From contig NZ_CP027858.1 of assembly GCF_005519465.1 (NCBI RefSeq), positions 3,596,001-3,660,000 of the forward strand: a stretch of DNA of 64,000 nucleotides, read 5' to 3'. The notes beneath the pieces were generated by a model. It searched no databases and was not told where the DNA came from. It saw nothing but the letters and a program-made list of their open reading frames with translations. Below, in pieces: positions 2,870 through 44,995 of the stretch. This DNA comes from Streptomyces clavuligerus. GTDB lineage: Bacteria; Actinomycetota; Actinomycetes; Streptomycetales; Streptomycetaceae. Both the position numbers and the translations under genes were made by a program. Position 1 is the stretch's first letter. Every line of letters starts with the position of its first letter.

Positions 2870-4194
2870 CCTTTCGGTCGGGAGAGACGGGTGAGGACGT
2901 TGCGGGTGATGGCCGCGACCTGCGAATCGGTGGTCAGCAGACGGGCCCAGTCGGTCGTGGCAGCGGTGAAGACGGTGCCGTTCGCCGTATAGAGGCCGAG
3001 CGTCGCGGCCCGGGGGCTGTCCACCACCTCCCGAGCAGCGAAGTTCCAGTCGGAAGGCAGCGAGGCGATGCCGAGGATCTCGAAGTCCTTCGGTGTCCCG
3101 TCCTGGCCTGTCGGACGAGGCCGTCCGGATGCGGCGAGCTCGTACGCCGCCCCGTCGGATTCGTAGCCGACCAGCGCGCCTTCGCGGCCGATGATGTCGC
3201 CCGTCCGCAGGCCCGTGCCGGAGAAGAGCCAGTGGTCCGCGTCCGTGACGGTGAAGCCGAGTTGAGTACGCGATCCGTCCCAGTGGCCGCCGCCGTTGCG
3301 GTAGCTCACGCCGAGGAGGGAGTTCTCGGGCTCCGACTCCCACCAGTGATCCGGGCAGCCGTGCGAGCTGTCAGGATCCGTTCCGGCGGGGGCTCCGGGC
3401 GGGAACTTGTCGCAGTGCAGACCGGACCCGTCAGGGGCCACGCGCACTCGCCACCAGCAGCTATTGGCACCGAAGTTGGCGATGTTGCCCCCGCCGTCCC
3501 GAAACGCGGTGACGTTTCGGCGTATCTCGGTGCTCCAGTACTCGTCGTGACCGGCGGCGACCAGGAGGCGGTATCCGTCATGAAGGTGTCGGCCTTCGTG
3601 AAGGTCCAGATCGGTGCAGTAGTCGCTCTCGATCCGGTTCTCCTCCATCCATCTGATGAAGGGGGCGTCCCAGTGGGCGAACGTCTGCCGCGGGGAGGTG
3701 GCGTCGTACGGGTCGGGCAGGCCCTTGACGGGGCCGCCGACACCGCCTCCGGGCCGGAGCATGCTGACGCCGGCGGCGCTGTAGAGACTGCCTCCCCCCG
3801 CTGTGTTGTAGGCGTGGTACGTGAAGGTCGGAATCTTGAAGAGGACCCTGCGGCCGGTCGGAGCCGACGGTGTGACGACGAAGAGGATCCGAGCCCCACG
3901 GGAGTCCAGTGGCGGTATGCCCGACAGCGGCTCCGTGCTCAGCGTCGCGATGTAGACCCCGGACCTCCACTCGGGGGGTACGAGGAACTCATAGGCGGGC
4001 CACCGCCAGTCCGCGTCGAACGTGTCCGGCTCCGCGACGCGGCCGGGCCACTCGACGTGCCCCGCGTGGTGAGGCACCGCGCCCCAGCGGTAGAAATCCA
4101 CGCGGCAACGCGGGGCCGATGTGGCGATATGCAGCCGGAGCACTTCGCCGGCGCGGACGCTCGACCGGGCCGGGTACCCGTTGATGTCCGTCAT
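2866..4194 (-). CDS. N,N-dimethylformamidase beta-subunit-like protein
   Basis: A 442-residue soluble protein. An N-terminal beta-sandwich-like region (about 1-110, opening GYPARSSVRAGEVLRLH) precedes a larger domain with TYHAYN (about 125-130) and AGHDEYWS (about 214-221), then GGGNIANFGANSCWW. This arrangement is typical of the C-terminal domain of the N,N-dimethylformamidase large subunit, an iron-dependent amidohydrolase. Most homologues in actinomycetes are uncharacterised, so activity on formamides should not be assumed. The start is the ATG overlapping the methyltransferase stop (ATGA); an in-frame ATG at 4263 lies inside the upstream gene and is less likely. The overlaps on both sides show it is part of one operon. 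Confidence 0.75.
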   Translation of the reverse strand: MTDINGYPARSSVRAGEVLRLHIATSAPRCRVDFYRWGAVPHHAGHVEWPGRVAEPDTFDADWRWPAYEFLVPPEWRSGVYIATLSTEPLSGIPPLDSRGARILFVVTPSAPTGRRVLFKIPTFTYHAYNTAGGGSLYSAAGVSMLRPGGGVGGPVKGLPDPYDATSPRQTFAHWDAPFIRWMEENRIESDYCTDLDLHEGRHLHDGYRLLVAAGHDEYWSTEIRRNVTAFRDGGGNIANFGANSCWWRVRVAPDGSGLHCDKFPPGAPAGTDPDSSHGCPDHWWESEPENSLLGVSYRNGGGHWDGSRTQLGFTVTDADHWLFSGTGLRTGDIIGREGALVGYESDGAAYELAASGRPRPTGQDGTPKDFEILGIASLPSDWNFAAREVVDSPRAATLGLYTANGTVFTAATTDWARLLTTDSQVAAITRNVLTRLSRPKG

Positions 4195-4868
4195 TCGCTG
4201 GGCCAGGGGCGGGCGACACCAGCGATGTGGAAGCGGTCGACCGGCTCGATCCGGGCTTCCCATTCCAGGTCACGCAGCTCCGACGTGAGGTCGGCGGAGT
4301 CCCGCAGCACCTTCACCGCCAGGTGGTGGGACCCGTCGGCGAGCTTGCGGCGCACCGTGGGCACCTGAGCCTCGCCGACGACCTCCTCGATCTCCGCCTT
4401 TGCGGGTGCGTCGTCGAGGAACACCACGCGGCCGCCCGGTGCCAGCGTCCACCTCAGCAGGTCCCAGAATGCCTCCATCTCCACCGGCGGCACATGGCTC
4501 AGCCAGAAGGCGAAGAAGACGGTGTCGTACCGGCGATCCGGCTCCCAGCCGAATACGTCCGCCTCAAGGAAGCGGGTCGGTGTCCCGTGCAACCGCTCAC
4601 GTGCCACGGACAGCATCTCCGGCGCGGCGTCCAGCGCGGTCAGGCTACGAGCACGGTCGGAGATCAGCCGGGTCCACTGGCCCGTACCGCACGCCAGTTC
4701 CAGCACATCACCGTGGATCGGCAGCCCGTCCAGGGCGTTCGCGAGGCGGGGCATGTGCATGCGCTCGCTGTAAGCGATGTCGTATTCGGCGGCTCGCGCT
4801 CGGTAGTACGCGATCTGGTGCTCAGACCACTTACCTCTGTCGCCATGCCGCTCTGTCGTCCCGGTCAC
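4191..4868 (-). CDS. class I SAM-dependent methyltransferase
   Basis: A 225-residue Rossmann methyltransferase. Motif I is VLELACGTGQW at about 55-65, followed by an acidic strand end (LDAAPE, about 79-84) and FLEADVF, which would contact adenine; a post-motif TLAPGGRVVFLDD follows. It is the first gene of the leftward operon. The start is GTG at 4868, with a purine-rich GAAGGGTGG about 9 nt upstream. It overlaps the next gene by 4 nt. It could modify the small molecule or glycan made by the downstream genes; its substrate is unknown. Confidence 0.85.
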   Translation of the reverse strand: MTGTTERHGDRGKWSEHQIAYYRARAAEYDIAYSERMHMPRLANALDGLPIHGDVLELACGTGQWTRLISDRARSLTALDAAPEMLSVARERLHGTPTRFLEADVFGWEPDRRYDTVFFAFWLSHVPPVEMEAFWDLLRWTLAPGGRVVFLDDAPAKAEIEEVVGEAQVPTVRRKLADGSHHLAVKVLRDSADLTSELRDLEWEARIEPVDRFHIAGVARPWPSE

Positions 4869-5138
4869 TCAATGACCACCCTTCCGTAACCATCCGGAGC
4901 GGTCGTGCTCCGTGGTGAGGAGACTGCCGTGGCATGCCGGACAGCGGGCTGCCGTTGTGTCGCACTCGCGTGGCAGCGCCATCGCGCACATGAGTGGTCG
5001 CCCATCCCTGGGCTCGGGCTCGCCGAGGCACCCCAGGTGCTGAACCCGTGCTGAACTCCTGTCGCAGTGAAGGCCCTACGCCGCTGGTCAGACCGCCCTA
5101 CGCTGTTACCGTCGTTGGTGTCGGTCGAAGGAGCCTCG
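4869..5138. promoter_or_regulatory. divergent promoter region with 9-bp direct repeat
   Basis: 270 bp between the leftward operon and the STAND gene. GTGCTGAAC occurs twice in succession (from 5038 and 5049), giving an 11-bp period on one face of the helix. Direct repeats with this period are the binding pattern of several actinomycete activators such as SARPs, so this is a candidate regulator site for the rightward gene. I see no convincing -35/-10 pair by eye. Confidence 0.4.
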
Positions 5139-8100
5139 GTGGCCACAGTGCAGCGCTGGACCGGAAGGGAGGCGCGTGCTCTGCGACTCGCGACGCGTCG
5201 GAGTGTGCGTCGCTTCGCCGCCTACCTCGGCGTCAGCGACCGGACGGTGTCCAACTGGGAGGCTCGGGGCGAGAAAATCGTTCTCGTTCCGGATTCCCAG
5301 GCGTTATTGGATACAGCGCTGGAGCGAAGCGACACGGAGGTACAGCGGCGCTTCTGGGATTCTGTCGGTGCTCCCACTCCTTCCGACGGGCCCACACCGG
5401 ATCACTACTTCCCCATTCCCGTCCCGGAGCCCGGCTTGGTGCACAGGTCAGATGATTTTGAGAGGCTCGTCTCCGTCCTGCGGGAGGCGTCTGCGGAGGC
5501 CAGTACCGCCGCAGTCGCCCTGTGCGGTCCCGGCGGGTTCGGGAAGACGACGCTGGCGACGCAGACATGCGACGACCCTCGTATACGAAATTCCTTCTCG
5601 GAGATCCTCTGGGTGGAGACGGGCGAGGGGTGTACAGCGGCGCGGGTCGTCGAACTGATCTCTGATCTGTGCGTTCATCTGGCCGGCAACCGGCCGTCCT
5701 TCACGGATCCGGAGCAGGCCGGCTTTCACCTGGCCCGTCTGCTCCAGGGCCGACGTGCTCTTCTTGTCGTCGACAATGTTTGGTCCGCGGCCGACCTCAG
5801 CCCCTTCCTCCTGGGCGGGGAGAACTGTGTGCGGCTCGTCACCACGCGGAACGTGCGTGTATGCCCCAGTGCCGCCCGGGTGGTGCAGCTGGGACCCATG
5901 GCACCGGGCGAGGTCAGAGAGCTGCTCATCCGCACCGTCGGCACCTTGGATGAGACCGAATCTGCGCGGCTTGCCGACGTGTGCGGTGGATGGCCCCTGC
6001 TGGCGTCGATCGTCGGAGCGAATGTCTCACAGGAAGTCGTCTCCGGCGTCCCGGCCGGCCGTGTGGTCGCGGAGACAAGCGCGACGATCCGCGCGTACGG
6101 CCCCCAGGCATTCGATGTCTGGGATTCGGACCAGCGGAAGAACGCCATGGGGCAGGCACTCTCGTCCAGCCTCCGCAGCCTTGAGGAGAGCGTCTCGATC
6201 GCCGGGCACTCGGACCTCCGGGATCGGTACCTTTCGCTCGCGGTCTTTCCCCCGTCGGTGCCGATCCCCATGTCGGTGCTCACCCACTGGTGGCAGACCG
6301 CGCACGGATGGGCGCCTCACGTCGTGCGGCAATTCTGCCGACTGCTGTCCGACCGCTCCCTGATCAGCGCGTATCTCGCCGACCGGAACGCCATTGTCCT
6401 GCACGATGTGTTCCGGTCATATCTGCGGCATCTGATCGGCGACCGCTGGGCGGCTCTTCATCAGTCCCTGACCGAGGCGTACCGCCGGAGTACCGAGGGC
6501 GCGTGGACGACGCTGGACGGAACCGAGGGCTACCTGTGGCGGCACCTTCCGTACCACCTGCGGGAAGCCGGCCTGGACGCCGAAGTCGTCAGTCTGCTGG
6601 CCTCTCCTCCGTACATCATCCGCAAGGTCGGTCTTGTCGGACATCAGTCTCTGACCAGGGACGCGGCTGTGCTGGATGCTCTGTCCGGCCAGCCCGACTC
6701 GGGCCACCCTCAACATAGGGAGTGGCTGATTGCCCGCGCCCTGACCGGCGCTGGATACCTGCTGAACGGAGTGGAAAGCCCGGCGGACATTGCCTCGACA
6801 CTCTCCATCGTGCTGCGACGCGCCCCTCTGACCGAAGCCACGCGAACCGTCGACCGTGGCATCGACGCGGAGGCCGTGTTCACCCCGAAGTGGCTGCTGC
6901 CGCCCGAGAACGCCACCACGGAAGCGGCGGTACCCGGCCATATCGGCGCGGTCGTCAGCGTCTCGGCCGTCCGTGACCTGGTGGTTTCGGGTGGTGAGGA
7001 CGGGGTGGTCAGGTTGTGGAACAGCAGCACCGGCCGATTGCTCCGAGCCCACCACGCCCACACCGGGTGGGTGTTCGCCACCGTGCTCTCGGCAGATGGC
7101 CTGGTCCTCGCGTCGGCGGGAGACGACGGGGCGATCCGGTTGTGGCGTACGGACACCGGGGACCCCATCGGGGTGCTGCCCGGGCACAATCGCCGCGTGC
7201 GGAGCCTCGCCTTCTCCCCCTCCGGCCCCATCTTGATCTCCGGGGCCGAGGACGGGGCTGTGCACGTGTGGGACACAGACAGACTGGTGCTCGTGCGTTC
7301 GATGCGTACGGTCGGCACTCCCGTCTGGTCCGTGGCGGTCGGAGGGGACTCCCACTCGTTTGTGGCCGTGGCCGGCGAGGACGAGTTCGTCCGCCTCTTC
7401 GATCTTCGTACAGGCCGCCTCCTGGACGAACACGCGGCTCACCGGGGCTGGGTACGCTCTGTGGCCTTCGCGCCCGAATCATCTGTCCTGGTCTCCGGAT
7501 CAGGAGACCGCTCCGTCATCGTGTGGGACACGGCGGAAGGACGACTCACGCTCGTTCGCCAGATCGCCGGTCTCAAGGCACGCGTGCGCGCCGTCGCTCT
7601 GACTCCGCACGCCGACATCATCGTCGCCGCCACCGAAGAGCCGAGAATCCAGGCGTTCGCGGCGGAAGGCCCAGCGCGCGAGACCCAGCCGCCGCCAGGT
7701 GTCGACTGGGTGCGCTCACTCGCCAGAACCGGCGACCGCACCGTGATCGCGGGATGCGAGGACGGCGCTGTTCGTGTCTGGACCGTGGGAAAAAGCAGGC
7801 TCAGGACGCTGGCCAGCGGCTCGAACACCGTGTGGTCCACACAGTTCGCCGCCGACGGCCGTACTGCTGCGGTCGGCGATGGAGCCGGTGGCGTCGGCAT
7901 CATCGATACCTCGACCGGGACGGTCAGCCGGAGACTCGCGGCGGCCCATGGGCGCGTCTGGTCCCTGGCCGGTGGCATGGAGCACATCGCGGCCGCGTGT
8001 GGCGACGGGGCAGTCAGAGTGTGGTCGCTGCTCGACGTGACATGGTCACTCACGCTGAACCAGGACACCCCGCGTACGTGGGCCGTGGCAATGGCCCGTT

Positions 8101-10566: not shown

Positions 10567-10640
10567 TGGAGCGGGTGACGAGAATCGAACTCGCGCTCTG
10601 AGCTTGGGAAGCTCATGTTCTACCATTAAACTACACCCGC
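10567..10640 (-). tRNA. tRNA-Gly (anticodon CCC)
   Basis: The reverse strand folds as a cloverleaf. The acceptor arms are GCGGGTG and CACCCGC, the D-loop contains TTTAATGGTAG, and the anticodon stem TGAGC/GCTCA encloses the loop TTCCCAA (anticodon CCC, reading GGG). The T-arm is GCGAG-TTCGATT-CTCGT. The discriminator T and CCA are encoded at 10567-10570. The integrase remnant beside its 3' end suggests it has served as an attachment site. Confidence 0.95.
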
Positions 10641-39844: not shown

Positions 39845-40144
39845 CCCCTGGGCCGACCGCCGGCTGCCGACCGCCGGCCGTCGGCACCCGCGCTGACCGG
39901 CGCACCCGGCGCCCAGCGGCGCGGGACGGCGCGCTCCGGCGCGCCCGATGGCGGAACGTGTCGAACCGACCGGTGAACCAAGCAGGTCAGGGGCCCGTGC
40001 CTTACCCGAATACGCCCCACGCGCGCCGCGCGTGACAAGCGTGGAGGGTGGCGCGGGCCCCGGCTTATGATGCCGATGGGGACCGGGGCTCCCACCACCA
40101 ACAGGAAGGGGCGGACCGCTACCCGGAACGTCGAGGAGACAGCG
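39845..40144 (+). promoter_or_regulatory. promoter region of the kynurenine genes
   Basis: 300 bp without a gene. TATGAT at 40065-40070 is the best -10 hexamer in this gap and would give a leader of about 68 nt. I do not see a good -35. Confidence 0.45.
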
Positions 40145-40972
40145 ATGTCACATGACGCCGACGCGACCCCGCATCTCGATTTCGCGGGCACCACTCCGTA
40201 CGAGGACTATGTCCAGGCGGATGTGCTGACCCACCTGCAAAAACCCCGGTCCGACGACCCGGGCGAAATGGTCTTCCTCGTCACCACCCAGGTGATGGAG
40301 CTGTGGTTCACCGTCATCGTCCACGAGTGGGAGACCGCGAGCCGGGCCCTGGACGAGGGCCGTGTCCCCGTGGCGCTGGACGCGCTGAAGCGTTCCGTGC
40401 GGGAGCTGGAGGCGCTGAACGCCTCGTGGCGACCGCTGGGGCAGCTCACCCCCGCGCAGTTCAACGCGTACCGGGGCGCTCTCGGTGAGGGCTCCGGCTT
40501 CCAGTCGGCGATGTACCGGCGGATGGAGTTCCTGCTCGGCGAGAAGTCCGCGTCCATGCTCGTCCCGCACCGGGGTGCGCCGCGTGTCCACGCGGAGCTG
40601 GAGAAGGCGCTCCAGCAGCCGAGCCTCTACGACGCGGTGCTGCGGCTGCTCGCCCGGCGCGGCTTCCCGGTGCCCGCGGAGGTCCTGGAACGGAATTTGG
40701 CGCGGCGGTACGAACCCAGCGCGGCGGTCGAGGCGGTCTGGACGGAGATCTACCGGGACCCGGAGAACCACGCCGAACCGGCCCGGCTCGGCGAGGCGTT
40801 GACCGATGTCGCCGAGTTGGTGTGGCGCTGGCGCAACGACCATCTGGTGGCGACCCGCCGTGCCATGGGCGCGAAGGTCGGCACCGGTGGCTCCGCCGGG
40901 GTGGCCTGGCTGGAGAAGCGGGCCCGCAACCATGTCTTTCCCGAGCTGTGGACGGCGCGCAGCCATGTCTGA
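40145..40972 (+). CDS. kynA: tryptophan 2,3-dioxygenase
   Basis: 275 residues of heme-dependent TDO. TPYEDYVQADVLTHLQKP opens the fold, MVFLVTTQVMELWFTVIVHE follows, and RPLGQLTPAQFNAYRGALGEGSGF (about 99-122) forms the substrate pocket, with SAMYRR. WRWRNDHLVATRRAMGAKVG provides the distal-histidine region. It opens tryptophan to N-formylkynurenine. The gene overlaps the kynureninase start by 8 nt. Confidence 0.95.
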   Translation: MSHDADATPHLDFAGTTPYEDYVQADVLTHLQKPRSDDPGEMVFLVTTQVMELWFTVIVHEWETASRALDEGRVPVALDALKRSVRELEALNASWRPLGQLTPAQFNAYRGALGEGSGFQSAMYRRMEFLLGEKSASMLVPHRGAPRVHAELEKALQQPSLYDAVLRLLARRGFPVPAEVLERNLARRYEPSAAVEAVWTEIYRDPENHAEPARLGEALTDVAELVWRWRNDHLVATRRAMGAKVGTGGSAGVAWLEKRARNHVFPELWTARSHV

Positions 40973-42359
40973 GACCCATGCCGCGACCATGCCTGAGACC
41001 CACGAGTTCCAAGAGATCCATGAGATCCACGAGACCGGTAAGGCCCCTGTGACTCCCCAGCACACCGCGTCCACCACCCCCGGACTCCCCTCCCGCCGCG
41101 CCGCCGCGCTGGACGGAGCGGATCGACTGGCCCCGCTGCGCGGGCTGTTCGCCCTGGACGGGACCGTCTATCTCGACGGGAACTCGCTGGGCGCGCTGCC
41201 CGCGCACGTCCCCGGCCGGATCGCCGATGTCGTCACCCGGCAGTGGGGCGGGCTGAGGATTCGCTCCTGGACCGAGAGCGGCTGGTGGACCGCGCCCGAG
41301 CGGATCGGCGACCGGATCGCCCCGCTGGTCGGCGCGGCCCCGGGGCAGATCGTGGTCGGCGACTCCACCAGCGTGAACGTGTTCAAGGCGGTGGTCGGCG
41401 CGGTCCGGCTCGCCGGTACGGACACCTCCCGGGAGACCCCCGGTACCGATGCGCCGGGTACGGGGGGAGGGGCCCGTACCGAGGTGCTCGTGGACGCGAG
41501 CACCTTCCCCACCGACGGCTATATCGCGGCGTCGGCGGCCCGGCTGACGGGCTGCCGGATCGTCCCCGTCGACCCCGCCGACGTGCCCTCGGCCCTCGGG
41601 CCGACGACGGCGGCCGTGCTGCTCAACCATGTCGACTTCCGCAGCGGCCGCCTGCACGACCTGCCCGCGCTCACCGAGGCGATCCACCGGGCGGGCGCGC
41701 TCGCGGTCTGGGACCTCTGCCACAGCGCGGGCGCGCTCCCCGTGGGGCTCGACGCGCACGGCGTGGACCTCGCCGTCGGCTGTACGTACAAGTACCTCAA
41801 CGGCGGCCCCGGCTCGCCCGCGTTCCTGTATGTCGCCGAGCGCCACCAGGCGGCCTTCGACTCCCCGCTGCCCGGCTGGAATTCGCACCGCGACCCCTTC
41901 GCCATGGACAGCGGCTACGCCCCGGCGGACGGCCCGCTGAAGGGCCGGGTGGGCACACCGGACATTCTGTCGATGCTCGCGCTGGACGCGGCGCTCGACG
42001 TCTGGGACGGGGTGTCGGTCGACGACATCCGGGCGAAGAGCCTGGCACTCACCGATTTCTTCCTGGAGTGCCTGGACGAACGGCTGCCCGGCGGGCTCGG
42101 CGACCCGGGCTGTCCGGTGCGCCCGGTGACCCCCCGGGAGCACGCGGAGCGCGGCAGCCAGATCGCCCTGCGCTGCGACCGGGCCCCGGTGGTGATGGAA
42201 CGGCTCATCGCCCGTGGCGTGGTGGGCGATCTGCGCCGCCCGGATCTGCTGCGTTTCGGTTTCACCCCGCTGTACACGTCGTTCGCGGACGTGGAACGGG
42301 CCGCCGCGACCCTGGTGGAGGTCGCGGCGGAGGTATACGGCGAGCCCTCGGGCGGATGA
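40965..42359 (+). CDS. kynU: kynureninase
   Basis: 464 residues of PLP enzyme. YLDGNSLGALP lies near the N-terminus, VWDLCHSAGALPV contains the PLP aspartate, and AVGCTYKYLNGGPGSPAF supplies Schiff-base Lys276. It cleaves kynurenine to anthranilate and alanine. The first 40 residues are a His/Glu-rich extension with EIHEIHE-like repeats, absent from most family members. An insertion of about 15 Thr/Gly-rich residues sits near 145-165. It overlaps the dioxygenase by 8 nt. Confidence 0.95.
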   Translation: MSETHAATMPETHEFQEIHEIHETGKAPVTPQHTASTTPGLPSRRAAALDGADRLAPLRGLFALDGTVYLDGNSLGALPAHVPGRIADVVTRQWGGLRIRSWTESGWWTAPERIGDRIAPLVGAAPGQIVVGDSTSVNVFKAVVGAVRLAGTDTSRETPGTDAPGTGGGARTEVLVDASTFPTDGYIAASAARLTGCRIVPVDPADVPSALGPTTAAVLLNHVDFRSGRLHDLPALTEAIHRAGALAVWDLCHSAGALPVGLDAHGVDLAVGCTYKYLNGGPGSPAFLYVAERHQAAFDSPLPGWNSHRDPFAMDSGYAPADGPLKGRVGTPDILSMLALDAALDVWDGVSVDDIRAKSLALTDFFLECLDERLPGGLGDPGCPVRPVTPREHAERGSQIALRCDRAPVVMERLIARGVVGDLRRPDLLRFGFTPLYTSFADVERAAATLVEVAAEVYGEPSGG

Positions 42360-42920
42360 CCCACCCGGCCCCGGGCCCACCGCCGCCGTCCGCGCGGTCC
42401 GGCCCCGGGCCGGACCACGCCGGACCCGGTGGACAAGGCCCCGGGAGCCCCCCCGGAGGTCCGCCGGAAGGCGCCGGAGGGCCCCGGGCCCGGGATGGTC
42501 TGCCGGATGTCCTTCCGCTGTCCTCGGGACGTTGGGGGACGTCCCCCGGGGCCGGGATGTCCCGACGGTGTCTGTGGGTGTGCCCGGGGGCCGGGGAGGG
42601 GGCGTCTGCCGGGTGTCCCTGGAGGTGCCCGGGGTGTCCCCTGGAGGGTCCCGGGAGGTCCTGGACGCCCCGAAGGTGCCCGGGGTGCCCCTGAAAGATG
42701 TCCGGGAACGTCCCCGGAAGCCTCCGGGAGGTGCGCCGGAAATCCCCGGAGGGTCCCGGGCGGCCTGCCGGAGGTCCTTCTGACGTCTTCGGGTGTGGGG
42801 GGCGTGCCCAGGGACCCCGGGGAGGTCTGCCGATGATCCCCGGGAGTCCGGGGCGTCCCGACAATGTCCCGGAACGCTCGGGGGATGTCCCGGCGACGTC
42901 CGGGAGTGTCCCCGGAGGGT
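42360..42920. repeat. GC-rich degenerate repeat array, left part
   Basis: No gene. The stretch is built of degenerate units of roughly 80-130 bp around GGAGGTCCGCCGG, GGATGTCC and TCCTCGGGACGT. GGGCGTCCCGACAATGTCCC at 42851 recurs as GGGCGTCCCGACAACGTCCC at 43815. All frames yield Gly/Pro/Arg-rich peptides only. The array continues at 43685 after the inserted cassette. Confidence 0.85.
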
Positions 42921-43067
42921 TGACAGCGGCCAGCTCGAAGTCCCCGCGTACGGCCAGTTACGAGATCACACTCCGTGATGAAGATGGCCCGCGGAGCGGC
43001 CGGATCGGACCGCTCCGGCCGCGCTGGGTGGCAAATGCCTCGCCTCGGCGCCGAGCAGGACAGCATC

Positions 43068-43589
43068 ATGATGCCCATGCACATCACGAGCTGCCGGCAA
43101 GAAGATCTGGATGTGCTGGAAGAGCGCCTGCCGTCCTCCAGCGCCGTCTCGTACCACGCTCAGCGGTTCGCCCGCCAGGTCTCGGGGACAAGCACGTTCC
43201 TGGTGGCCTGGCTGGATGCCCAGCCGGCCGGAACCTGCGAAGTACGGTGGGACGGCTGCGTGGCACCAGAGGTGAGGGCCGTCGTGCCGGGCTGCCCGGA
43301 GATCAACGGTTTGCAGGTCGTCGGCATGCTGCAGTCCCGGGGGATAGGCAGCGCCTTGATCCGCCATGCCGAACAGCTCGCCGGTGAACGAGGCGCACAC
43401 CTGATCGGACTGGGAGTGGACGATCACGGGAATCCGCGAGCTGCCGCCCTCTACGCCCGCTTGGGGTACCGACCCACGATCCGCTACCTGGACCGCTACT
43501 TCTATACAGACGACACCGGTGCCGAACACCCGGTCGAAGATCCCGCCATCTTTCTGGTGAAGGAGCTCACGCCCAAGCACCAGCCATGA
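43068..43589 (+). CDS. GNAT-family N-acetyltransferase (cassette cargo)
   Basis: About 173 residues. ITSCRQEDLDVLEERLPSSS opens the fold, LVAWLDAQPAGTCEVRWDGC is strands 2-3, QSRGIGSALIRHAEQLAGER is the acetyl-CoA pyrophosphate loop, and NPRAAALYARLGYRP is motif B. GC and codon use are clearly lower in bias than in the flanking core genes. The start is uncertain (43068, 43071, 43077, or upstream 42975). The substrate is unknown; such genes can acetylate drugs or toxins. Confidence 0.8.
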   Translation: MMPMHITSCRQEDLDVLEERLPSSSAVSYHAQRFARQVSGTSTFLVAWLDAQPAGTCEVRWDGCVAPEVRAVVPGCPEINGLQVVGMLQSRGIGSALIRHAEQLAGERGAHLIGLGVDDHGNPRAAALYARLGYRPTIRYLDRYFYTDDTGAEHPVEDPAIFLVKELTPKHQP

Positions 43590-43634
43590 CCCGCTCTCCC
43601 GCTATCAACACAGAGTCACGGATCGCGGCCAGAT

Positions 43635-43667
43635 GATTCCCCACTGGCTGGCCGCCAGCGGGGAATC
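43635..43667 (+). terminator. hairpin after the GNAT gene
   Basis: GATTCCCC / GGGGAATC inverted repeat with inner CTGG/CCAG pairing. It overlaps the right cassette end, so it may be both a terminator and a transposase-binding feature. Confidence 0.55.
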
Positions 43668-43690
43668 GGAACTGGCCGCTGACAGAGGGT

Positions 43691-44098
43691 CCGGGAGGGG
43701 GCGTCTGCCGGATGTCCCCCGGAGGTCCGCCGGGAGGCGTCGGAGGGCCCGGGAGGTCCACCAGGTGTCCTTCTGGCGTCCTCGGGACGTCCGGGGACGT
43801 GCCCGGGAGCCCCGGGGCGTCCCGACAACGTCCCGGAACGTCCCGGAGGGTCCGTCGGAAGTCCCGGAAGGTCCCGGAGGGGCCGGGGTGGTCCGGCGGA
43901 AGGGCCCGTGGCCTCGCCGTTCCCGCCCCGCGCCGGTGAGAATCCGTCAGGAAGCCGCGGGCCGTCCCCGCCGAGTTCTCCGGGAGCCCGGTCAGGGCGC
44001 CGGGGTACTGATACCGTCCCCGCTGGTCAGATCAGTTCCGCGGTCGCTCGTTCAAGCCCGCGGCCCCATCCGCGACTTCCCGGGAAGGTGCACCCGCA
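43691..44098. repeat. GC-rich repeat array, right part, and leader
   Basis: 43691-43890 continues the array: GGAGGTCCGCCGGGAGGCG and TCCTCGGGACGTCC recur here and in the left part. 43891-44098 has no gene and leads to the hydrolase start. Confidence 0.8.
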
Positions 44099-44995
44099 AT
44101 GGACCCTGTGGCCCGTGACAACGCCGAGTCCGAGTCGGCCTTCTCGCATCCCGCGGTGGCCCCGGACGCCTCCCTGCCCTACGGCGGCCACCCCGATCAG
44201 GTGGTCGACTTCTACCGGCCCCGGAACGGCGCGGAGCGGACGCCGCTCGTCGTCCTGGTGCACGGCGGGGCCTGGCGCGCCCCCTACGACCGCACGCATG
44301 TCTCCCCGTTCGCGGACTTTCTCGCCCGGCGCGGGCTCGCCGTCGCCAGCGTCGAGTACCGCAGGGGCCGCGAACTGCCCCGGCAGGGCGGTGAAGGGCC
44401 GGTCGCCGGGCGCTGGCCGGACACCTTCGACGACATCGCCGCCGTCCTGGACGCGCTGCCCGCGCTGGCCGCCCGCGCGCTGCCCGGGGCGGACCCGGGG
44501 CGGACCGTCCTCACGGGGCACTCCGCCGGGGGACAGCTCGTGCTGTGGGCGGCGGCCCGGCATGTGCTCCCCGCCGGTTCGCCCTGGCGGCTGCCCGCCC
44601 CGCCCGCGCTGCGCGGGGTGGTCGCCCTCGCGCCGGTCGCCGACTTCGCCCTCGCGGTGGAACGGGACGTGTGCGGCGGGGCGGTACGGCAGCTCCTGGG
44701 CGCGAGCGGGGGCGGCAGCGGCGAGGGGGAGGGCGAGGAGACCTTCGCCGAGCGGAGCGCCCGAACCGACCCCGCCGCGCTGCTGCCGACGGGCATCGCG
44801 ACCGTCGTCGTCCAGGGGCGCGAGGACATCGTGGTGCCGTACGGGCTGGCCGAGTCGTTCGTCGACACGGCGGCCCTCGCGGGGGAGACCGTCGGCCTCA
44901 CCCTGCTGGAGGATGTCGGCCACTTCCCGCTGATCGACCCGGCGGCGGACGCGTGCGCGGTGGTGGCGGAGGAGATCGCCCAGCTCGCCTGGTGA
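44099..44995 (+). CDS. alpha/beta hydrolase, kynurenine-formamidase-like
   Basis: 298 residues. VLVHGGAWRAPYDR (about 52-65) is the oxyanion HGGxW loop typical of esterases and arylformamidases. GHSAGGQLVLWAA carries nucleophile Ser142, and EDVGHFPLIDP the catalytic His. N-formylkynurenine hydrolysis is the step missing between the dioxygenase and kynureninase upstream, and from memory this trio is adjacent in other Streptomyces. General esterase activity remains possible. ATG 44099. Confidence 0.8.
   Translation: MDPVARDNAESESAFSHPAVAPDASLPYGGHPDQVVDFYRPRNGAERTPLVVLVHGGAWRAPYDRTHVSPFADFLARRGLAVASVEYRRGRELPRQGGEGPVAGRWPDTFDDIAAVLDALPALAARALPGADPGRTVLTGHSAGGQLVLWAAARHVLPAGSPWRLPAPPALRGVVALAPVADFALAVERDVCGGAVRQLLGASGGGSGEGEGEETFAERSARTDPAALLPTGIATVVVQGREDIVVPYGLAESFVDTAALAGETVGLTLLEDVGHFPLIDPAADACAVVAEEIAQLAW

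Follow-up and report, generated by a model that had tools for sequence, protein, structure and literature searches.

A transposase-less GNAT cassette with IS21-type ends in Streptomyces clavuligerus and similar end-pairs with diverse cargo in other actinobacteria

The window, i.e., the whole 64,000-nucleotide stretch of Streptomyces clavuligerus DNA that was analyzed, contains at positions 42921-43684 a unit of 764 bp. It has imperfect inverted ends of 37 bp, a 6-bp flanking repeat, a single gene for a GNAT N-acetyltransferase, and no transposase gene. This unit is very probably a non-autonomous mobile insertion cassette of the IS21 family that was moved in trans. The earlier note, made from the sequence of the window, had read it as a transposase-less IS21-like cassette carrying a GNAT gene, and this reading was supported by istA/istB elements with homologous ends and by many similar cassettes.

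The window element, its gene and its insertion site

The features of the unit are listed in Table 1. The two terminal repeats are complementary at 29 of 37 positions (78%) and are spaced by 690 nt. The termini read TGACAG...CTGACA, that is 5′-TG...CA-3′ as in IS21-type ends. A second CGGCCAG was found 23 bp inward at both ends, and two GGCCA units are present in the left end and three in the right end if the inverted one is counted. The ends were scored with leave-one-out models, for which 52 other elements were the input and the window element and one duplicate row were excluded. The left end scored 51.2 bits (E 5.5e-15) and the right end 52.4 bits (E 3.3e-15). The inverted ends with an internal CGGCCAG described in the earlier note were thus borne out, with E values around 1e-15, and so were the flanking GAGGGT, which is exact at both sides, and the presence of a single gene without a transposase, as only the GNAT frame was convincing. 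The GC content of the cassette is 66%, compared with 77% in the surrounding array, and the cassette is present as a single copy in its own 8.54-Mb genome. An Rfam search of the window at the gathering threshold revealed nothing but one tRNA gene (10570-10640, minus strand).

Table 1. Features of the cassette and of its insertion site (positions in the window)
Feature	Position	Strand	Basis
GC-rich (77%) imperfect repeat array, left part	42361-42914		
Target duplication GAGGGT, left copy	42915-42920		Direct reading; exact at both sides
Left terminal repeat, IS21-type (TGACAGCGGCCAG...CGGCCAG)	42921-42957	+	Leave-one-out model spans 42921-42978
Inner motif TCACACTCCGTGA, of a kind common to other cassettes just inside the left end	42966-42978	+	Alignment of ends
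GNAT N-acetyltransferase gene, 173 aa, most likely start	43068-43589	+	Pfam; matching ATG of a relative
Right-end counterpart of the inner motif, read from the right end inwards GTGACTCTGTGTTGA	43605-43619	-	Alignment
Right end: terminal repeat (43648-43684) and inner inverted GGCCA/CCCC repeat	43622-43684	-	Leave-one-out model spans 43625-43684
Target duplication GAGGGT, right copy	43685-43690		Direct reading
GC-rich array, right part	43691-43960		

The GNAT frame is open from 42975 (204 aa; Pfam PF00583, E 3.8e-13). We took 43068 as the start, which gives a 173-aa form (PF00583, E 2.4e-13), because the relative in genome G261 begins at the corresponding ATG. The latter is the closest non-cassette relative, with 83% identity to positions 112-693 of the window cassette; the match consists of the GNAT gene with about 36 bp before and about 24 bp after it and includes neither cassette end. 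Further relatives, at 85-86%, were found in Nonomuraea and Kitasatospora. In total, 191 GNAT homologues were found, and the family is common as a plain gene. Cassette ends were sought at 13 of the homologous loci and were found at none. DNA searches, including those of plasmids and phages, gave no match spanning the GNAT gene and the ends outside the own genome; the window cassette had no match in phages, and no relatives of the GNAT protein were found in viral contigs. The numbers of plain homologues and of loci without ends would agree with an ordinary resident gene, flanked by inverted repeats that are a chance or regulatory feature. Against this stand the leave-one-out E values near 1e-15, the exact 6-bp flanking repeat and the lack of the gene at this place in relatives. 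The family of end-pairs described below refutes such a reading, and we give it practically no weight.

The protein cluster to which the GNAT belongs represents 29 contigs, which suggests that many isolates keep the gene. The best relatives of solved structure were PaiA (E 5e-5) and an aminoglycoside 3'-N-acetyltransferase (E 8e-5), and the five NCBIfam matches were all far below the cut-off. Neither the solved structures nor NCBIfam indicated a close characterized relative or a particular substrate. A resistance or toxin-modifying role, at which the earlier note had hinted, was not established, as no characterized enzyme is close to the GNAT. The PADLOC defense models matched none of 10 proteins (the window GNAT and nine cargo-type proteins). 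The GNAT gene is probably a useful passenger.

The cassette is inserted into an imperfect repeat array with 77% GC. On one side, the array is bordered by the end of a kynureninase gene (Pfam KYNU_C), and on the other by a gene for an alpha/beta-hydrolase (BD-FAE, Abhydrolase_3). The array units are CGTCCCGGAA- or GGTCC-like, with periods of 10 and 21-22 bp. Genes for tryptophan 2,3-dioxygenase, kynureninase and the hydrolase, which may be a kynurenine formamidase, are clustered at 40067-42359 and 44099-44995 of the window. The cassette and the array separate the last two, whose matches lie 117-229 bp apart in several relatives. In relatives, the kynureninase-hydrolase pair is present at this site and the GNAT cassette is absent. 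A blastn comparison of the array with the same interval in the fetched relatives gave only matching stretches of up to 51 bases. The empty-site check proposed earlier was therefore answered in part: the cassette-free gene pair was found, but no GC-rich array is recognizable there either, and a strictly empty allele was not seen. The seamless joining of the array after removal of the cassette and one GAGGGT, to which the earlier note had also pointed, is not diagnostic, since random joins within the array were equally good in 17-47% of 500 trials, the percentage varying with the length compared.

A family of end-pairs with changing cargo

A DNA search of 295 genomes of the genus with the window element gave matches in 71 of them, many of which were to one or both ends only. 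Two sequence-only end models were then seeded with 13 right ends and 10 left ends. Among 392 genomes of the genus, the right-end model matched 85 and the left-end model 77. In addition, 84,980 species genomes were searched with one degenerate 25-base pattern, and 40 stretches were fetched. Their hosts were Streptomyces, Nocardia, Nonomuraea, Kitasatospora, Streptacidiphilus, Actinacidiphila, Saccharothrix, Rugosimonospora, Kutzneria, Saccharopolyspora and Solihabitans. Pattern matches in Nitrosopelagicus and in a gammaproteobacterial MAG, each with a single weak end, look like chance. Two pattern matches were obtained in viral contigs, neither with an end pair. The right-end model matched 14 of 296 class-wide genomes, four of them of the same genus, so the density outside Streptomyces is low.

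From these matches, 54 convergent end-pairs were assembled, 35 from the genus search and 19 from the pattern stretches; 53 are distinct, as L102 is identical to L218. The set was put together by eye from model matches, only part of which were fetched. Partnerless single ends (23 loci in one listing, plus others) were left out, and some pairs with weak partner ends were kept (e.g., L116 with 15.9 bits and L211 with 12.4 bits). Loci found later (L160, L161, L261, L264 and the plasmid copies L265, L268, L269, L285, L286) are outside the 54, and incomplete or repeated plasmid loci were not counted (L267, which is L032 again; L281 and L282, with a degraded right end; L266, with the left end only). 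The pairs come from eight genera: Streptomyces, Nocardia, Nonomuraea, Kitasatospora, Saccharothrix, Streptacidiphilus, Rugosimonospora and Saccharopolyspora. The elements are 363-2493 bp long (median 1253) and sort into 31 sequence clusters, the largest with 11 elements.

An exact 6-bp flanking repeat was found in 24 of the 54 pairs, with 0.49 expected and a maximum of 4 in 2000 trials in which the right flanks were shuffled among the elements. Of the remaining 30 pairs, 5 have a 6-bp repeat with one mismatch, 3 an exact 5-bp repeat and 22 neither, so that 25 of 54 are without a 6-bp repeat even if one mismatch is allowed. The five plasmid pairs with two good ends each (L265, L268, L269, L285, L286) all have 6-bp repeats, as judged by eye. 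The MerR cassettes L047, L088, L091 and L092 of the largest cluster are 91-98% identical, and their duplications are four different ones (GCCGGT, ACCGGG, ACCGTG and TACCTG). In the case of L088 (genome G356) and L091 (G013), the cassettes are 98% identical over 1263 bp. For the host stretch beside L088 (L088:753-1249), which contains a tRNA-Gly and lies near a gene for dCTP deaminase, the identity between these two genomes is 68%. The PRiA4_ORF3 cassettes of five genomes are 87-93% identical and have different exact duplications in four. One cassette thus sits at different sites in different species. In L088 (S. carminius), the insertion of the MerR cassette (at 1324) lies about 107 bp past a tRNA-Gly gene (1144-1217); its right flank had no host match among the matches listed in relatives and is perhaps part of an integrated element.

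Empty sites were also sought for other cassettes. The break points between the NBC_00257 Streptomyces plasmid and L265 (2666 and 4614) differ from the cassette borders (3001-4266). In the comparison of the S. xanthophaeus KPP03845 plasmid with L286, homology ends at 1284, 7 bp ahead of the cassette start (1292), and restarts at 3763, about 700 bp past the other cassette end (3060), so this comparison is confounded by a second insertion or a deletion. A two-sided match was absent for L093 in relatives of G064 and for L090 in relatives of G365. For L088 in relatives of G356, host similarity among the matches listed was confined to the left flank with tRNA-Gly. The surroundings of L266, L268, L095, L285 and L267 showed no clean empty site among the matches listed in plasmids. 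With a strict filter, an ORF across the joined flanks was found at one of the 24 duplication-bearing sites (L210, Saccharothrix), hence most insertion sites look intergenic. At L089 and L225, a reading frame extends right to the cassette edge, and some host genes may have been cut by cassettes.

Several copies are plasmid-borne. The S. violaceusniger plasmid pSTRVI01 carries the TetR and NADP oxidoreductase cassette of L032 without a duplication. The S. alboflavus plasmid pMDJK44.2 carries a different, unrelated GNAT cassette (L268, 2781-3562) with the exact 6-bp duplication CCCGGT. Other plasmid-borne duplications are CTCCAG (Streptomyces NBC_00046), GCCGCC (Embleya NBC_00896), TGCTGC (S. antimycoticus) and CCCAGC (S. 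xanthophaeus). The L268 cassette lies beside the relaxase gene mobF, and its plasmid is mobilizable. In L286, a stretch of about 590 bp (~3318-3905) that is present in many Streptomyces plasmids lies just past the beta-lactamase-fold cassette.

The striking feature of the family is the diversity of cargo in one frame. According to Pfam, GNAT proteins are encoded in the window cassette, in L218 and on the S. alboflavus plasmid, APH proteins in L100 and L210, alpha/beta-hydrolases in L200 and L206, and a protein of beta-lactamase fold on the S. xanthophaeus plasmid. Two-part cargos are TetR with a zinc-type oxidoreductase (L032), with an alpha/beta-hydrolase (L106) or with an FAD monooxygenase (L203), AraC/DJ-1 with Sacchrp_dh (L104) or with a cupin (L235), and Pyr_redox with a sigma factor (L236). 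Other Pfam matches were MerR, CN_hydrolase, Hexapep, Rhomboid, PRiA4_ORF3, epoxide hydrolase, DUF3050, DUF6193, DUF6463, Sel1, RibD_C and EthD. A Pfam match was lacking in 6 of the 36 cargo proteins scanned (L034, L037, L046, L097, L098, L229), and the short elements L050 and L103 are without a called gene. Because the cargo ORFs were picked by visual inspection and by GC at codon positions, the list of genes may be incomplete. The cargos of L032, L104, L106, L203 and L235 contain a regulator, and such cargos probably have their own promoters. For the FAD monooxygenase of L203 (Nocardia fusca, 4807-7006), the NCBIfam matches include rifampin monooxygenase, all of them well below the cut-off. 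In none of the 54 elements was an IstA or IstB homologue detected by tblastn with the L159 proteins (E≤0.01).

Autonomous IS21 elements and the source of the transposase

IS21 transposition proceeds by the binding of IstA to the end repeats and the preparation of the target by IstB, and staggered joining leaves a short repeat. The cassette encodes neither protein, so IstA and IstB must have come from elsewhere. Autonomous IS21 elements were reached by an IstB search of 60 end-bearing genomes. Those of G046, G242 and G284 have left ends that begin with TGATAGCGGCC or TGACGGCGGCC, with four GGCC[A/G] units within the first 110 bases, and right ends with TGTCAA. Three of the four copies read have duplications (CACCAT, CCCGGG, GCCCGG) and one, L157, has none. 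The copy L159 of G284 encodes a 512-aa IstA (rve and Mu-transpos_C_2) and a 263-aa IstB (IstB_IS21); in the copies of G046 and G242, the reading frame of istA seems to be disrupted. The ends of a second Streptomyces IS21 clade (L162, L163, L168-L170) are more diverged.

Among the class-wide genomes, ten outside the genus were matched by the right-end model, and three of these ten ends adjoin IstA/IstB. Two complete copies have the duplications GACTG and GCGCA. The elements with IstA and IstB, like the cassettes, have TG...CA termini and GGCCA...CCCC repeats. Of the other seven matches, one, which has a weak partner end, lies by an AraC/DJ-1 gene, and four may be chance. The remaining two (L262 near 1706 and L263 near 1866), from different genera of a single other family, are cassette-like ends followed by a gene for an Imm5-like immunity protein, and no partner end was found at these two loci. 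The right ends in G505 and G514 agree with the window right end at 31 of 37 (84%) and 30 of 37 positions, respectively, compared with 29 of 37 between the window's own two ends. In the case of the three Streptomyces IS21 types, the ungapped agreement with the window ends is only 20-27 of 37. An autonomous IS with near-identical ends was not found, the best being the 84% over 37 bp in another family. The search for an IS with the same ends, suggested in the earlier note, thus revealed homologous ends on istA/istB elements of Streptomyces and of other actinobacterial families, but not identical ones.

We infer that the cassettes were moved in trans by IS21 enzymes. The GGCCA-n-CCCC repeat units in both ends would be the transposase-binding sites, and the captured GNAT gene would stand in the place of istA and istB. 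IstA and IstB from elsewhere, supplied by an IS21 on a plasmid, an integrative element or a chromosome, would have bound the cassette ends and moved the unit into the GC-rich intergenic array, leaving the 6-bp duplication. A resident mobilizer in the own genome was considered and rejected, as neither an IS21-like IstB nor an IS21 with model ends was found there. The best of the four IstB-family matches in this genome, a frame of 523 codons, shares about 30% identity with the L159 IstB, and no model end was found in 14 kb around this frame. Because no IS21 with model ends was found in its genome, the window copy is probably stranded at present. We give about even weight to the view, compatible with movement in trans, that this copy is an old remnant that no longer moves and that, as with any other gene acquired horizontally, its gene may or may not be the reason for its retention. 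Its single copy, the failure to find a resident IS21 and the 29 contigs of the GNAT cluster agree with this, but with both ends and the duplication intact, the unit could be mobilized again by incoming IstA and IstB.

The strongly conserved part of the cassettes is longer at the right end (about 60 bases, with the inverted inner repeat) than at the left (about 39), with scattered conservation to about 76 and 59 bases, respectively. Among the 31 cluster representatives, an inner motif TCAC-n-GT was found at the left in 15, compared with 4% of control windows, and at the right in 17, compared with 5%; the pattern was picked after the alignment had been seen. The motif was absent from all six autonomous IS21 copies compared, which include two of the same IS. 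Inward of this motif, the cassette sequences diverge between clusters. The cassettes therefore appear to share a single lineage of ends in which the cargo varies, but independent origins are also possible. That every cassette arose separately, from a full IS21 copy whose interior was deleted or replaced and without exchange of cargo, is in our opinion somewhat unlikely. The gene-less short forms L050 and L103 and the shortened L087 (575 bp, MerR cluster) indicate that deletion happens, but the clusters have a common end architecture, about half of them have the inner motif that is absent from the autonomous copies, and no trace of istA or istB remains.

The same motif, with its distribution of 15/31, 17/31 and 0/6, bears on the nature of the enzyme. 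A dedicated stand-alone transposase, descended from IS21, could move the cassettes, much as one integrase serves many integron cassettes. It would fit the likeness of cassette ends in Streptomyces, Nocardia, Nonomuraea, Kitasatospora, Saccharothrix and Rugosimonospora, and the fetched loci with cassette-type ends, which have no nearby IstA/IstB match (E≤1e-6). However, a candidate enzyme was not seen among the end matches, of which only part were fetched. Moreover, IS21 enzymes may tolerate divergence of the ends, and autonomous copies may be scarce or not represented in the assemblies. We consider such an enzyme quite unlikely and favor mobilization by IstA and IstB of IS21 elements.

Comparison with known mobile units and implications

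The window unit has inverted repeats, a passenger gene, a target duplication and no transposase, and an IS with homologous ends exists; istA and istB, which an autonomous IS21 has inside, are absent from it. In these respects, it resembles the mobile insertion cassettes, such as MIC231/IS231 of Bacillus cereus, mic-qnrD and mic-qnrS2, which combine inverted repeats, a passenger and a duplication without a transposase. IS231 is a member of the IS4 family. Unlike in MIC231, the ends are IS21-type, the hosts are actinobacteria, the duplications are mostly 6 bp, and there are 54 pairs in 31 clusters. MITEs are gene-less, non-autonomous elements with IS-derived ends that are mobilized in trans. The window unit differs from them in encoding a 173-aa GNAT, and only the 363- and 375-bp members of the family are MITE-like. 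Single genes or small operons and diverse cargo in a common frame are shared with integron gene cassettes, but the ends here are inverted, of IS21 type, and accompanied by a target duplication. An attC cassette is not expected to have inverted TG/CA ends with a duplication. With the IS21 family (IS21, IS5376), the cassettes share the TG...CA ends, the repeats within the terminal inverted repeats and the short direct repeats; they differ in having cargo instead of istA/istB and, in about half of the clusters, the additional inner motif.

The excerpt of one paper describes MIC231 as mobilized in trans by the IS231A transposase, with inverted repeats, a passenger gene in place of the transposase gene and a target duplication (PMC3913671), and that of another describes IS21 ends with the multiple repeats L1/L2 and R1/R2 and 5-bp direct repeats for the element studied (PMC10122671). 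In the publications, as far as their excerpts go, few passengers of mobile insertion cassettes are named (MIC231, mic-qnr), compared with many here. No link between mobile insertion cassettes and IS21 was found in the excerpts of two further papers (PMC3281130, PMC4444841). Titles and abstract openings of a mostly open-access literature, without bioRxiv and ISfinder, revealed no IS21-ended gene cassettes in actinobacteria.

We tentatively suggest, with somewhat less than even confidence, that actinobacteria share a transposon-based economy resembling that of integron cassettes, in which a frame consisting of one conserved pair of IS21-derived ends, often with an inner motif of its own, has its cargo repeatedly replaced and is moved between genera in trans by IS21-type, possibly dedicated, enzymes. 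If this is true, the cargo of this portable frame consists of resistance-like and detoxification enzymes, regulator-enzyme pairs and immunity-like proteins, on chromosomes as well as on plasmids. The end models are a direct means to list this cargo, and since IS21 is biochemically tractable, mobilization in trans can be tested at once. Horizontal gene flow in antibiotic-producing actinobacteria is usually credited to conjugative plasmids, integrative elements and phages. As a common class, cassettes shorter than 2.5 kb, with one or two genes and no transposase to annotate, would let resistance-type enzymes and regulators pass between genera by a route that has been overlooked.
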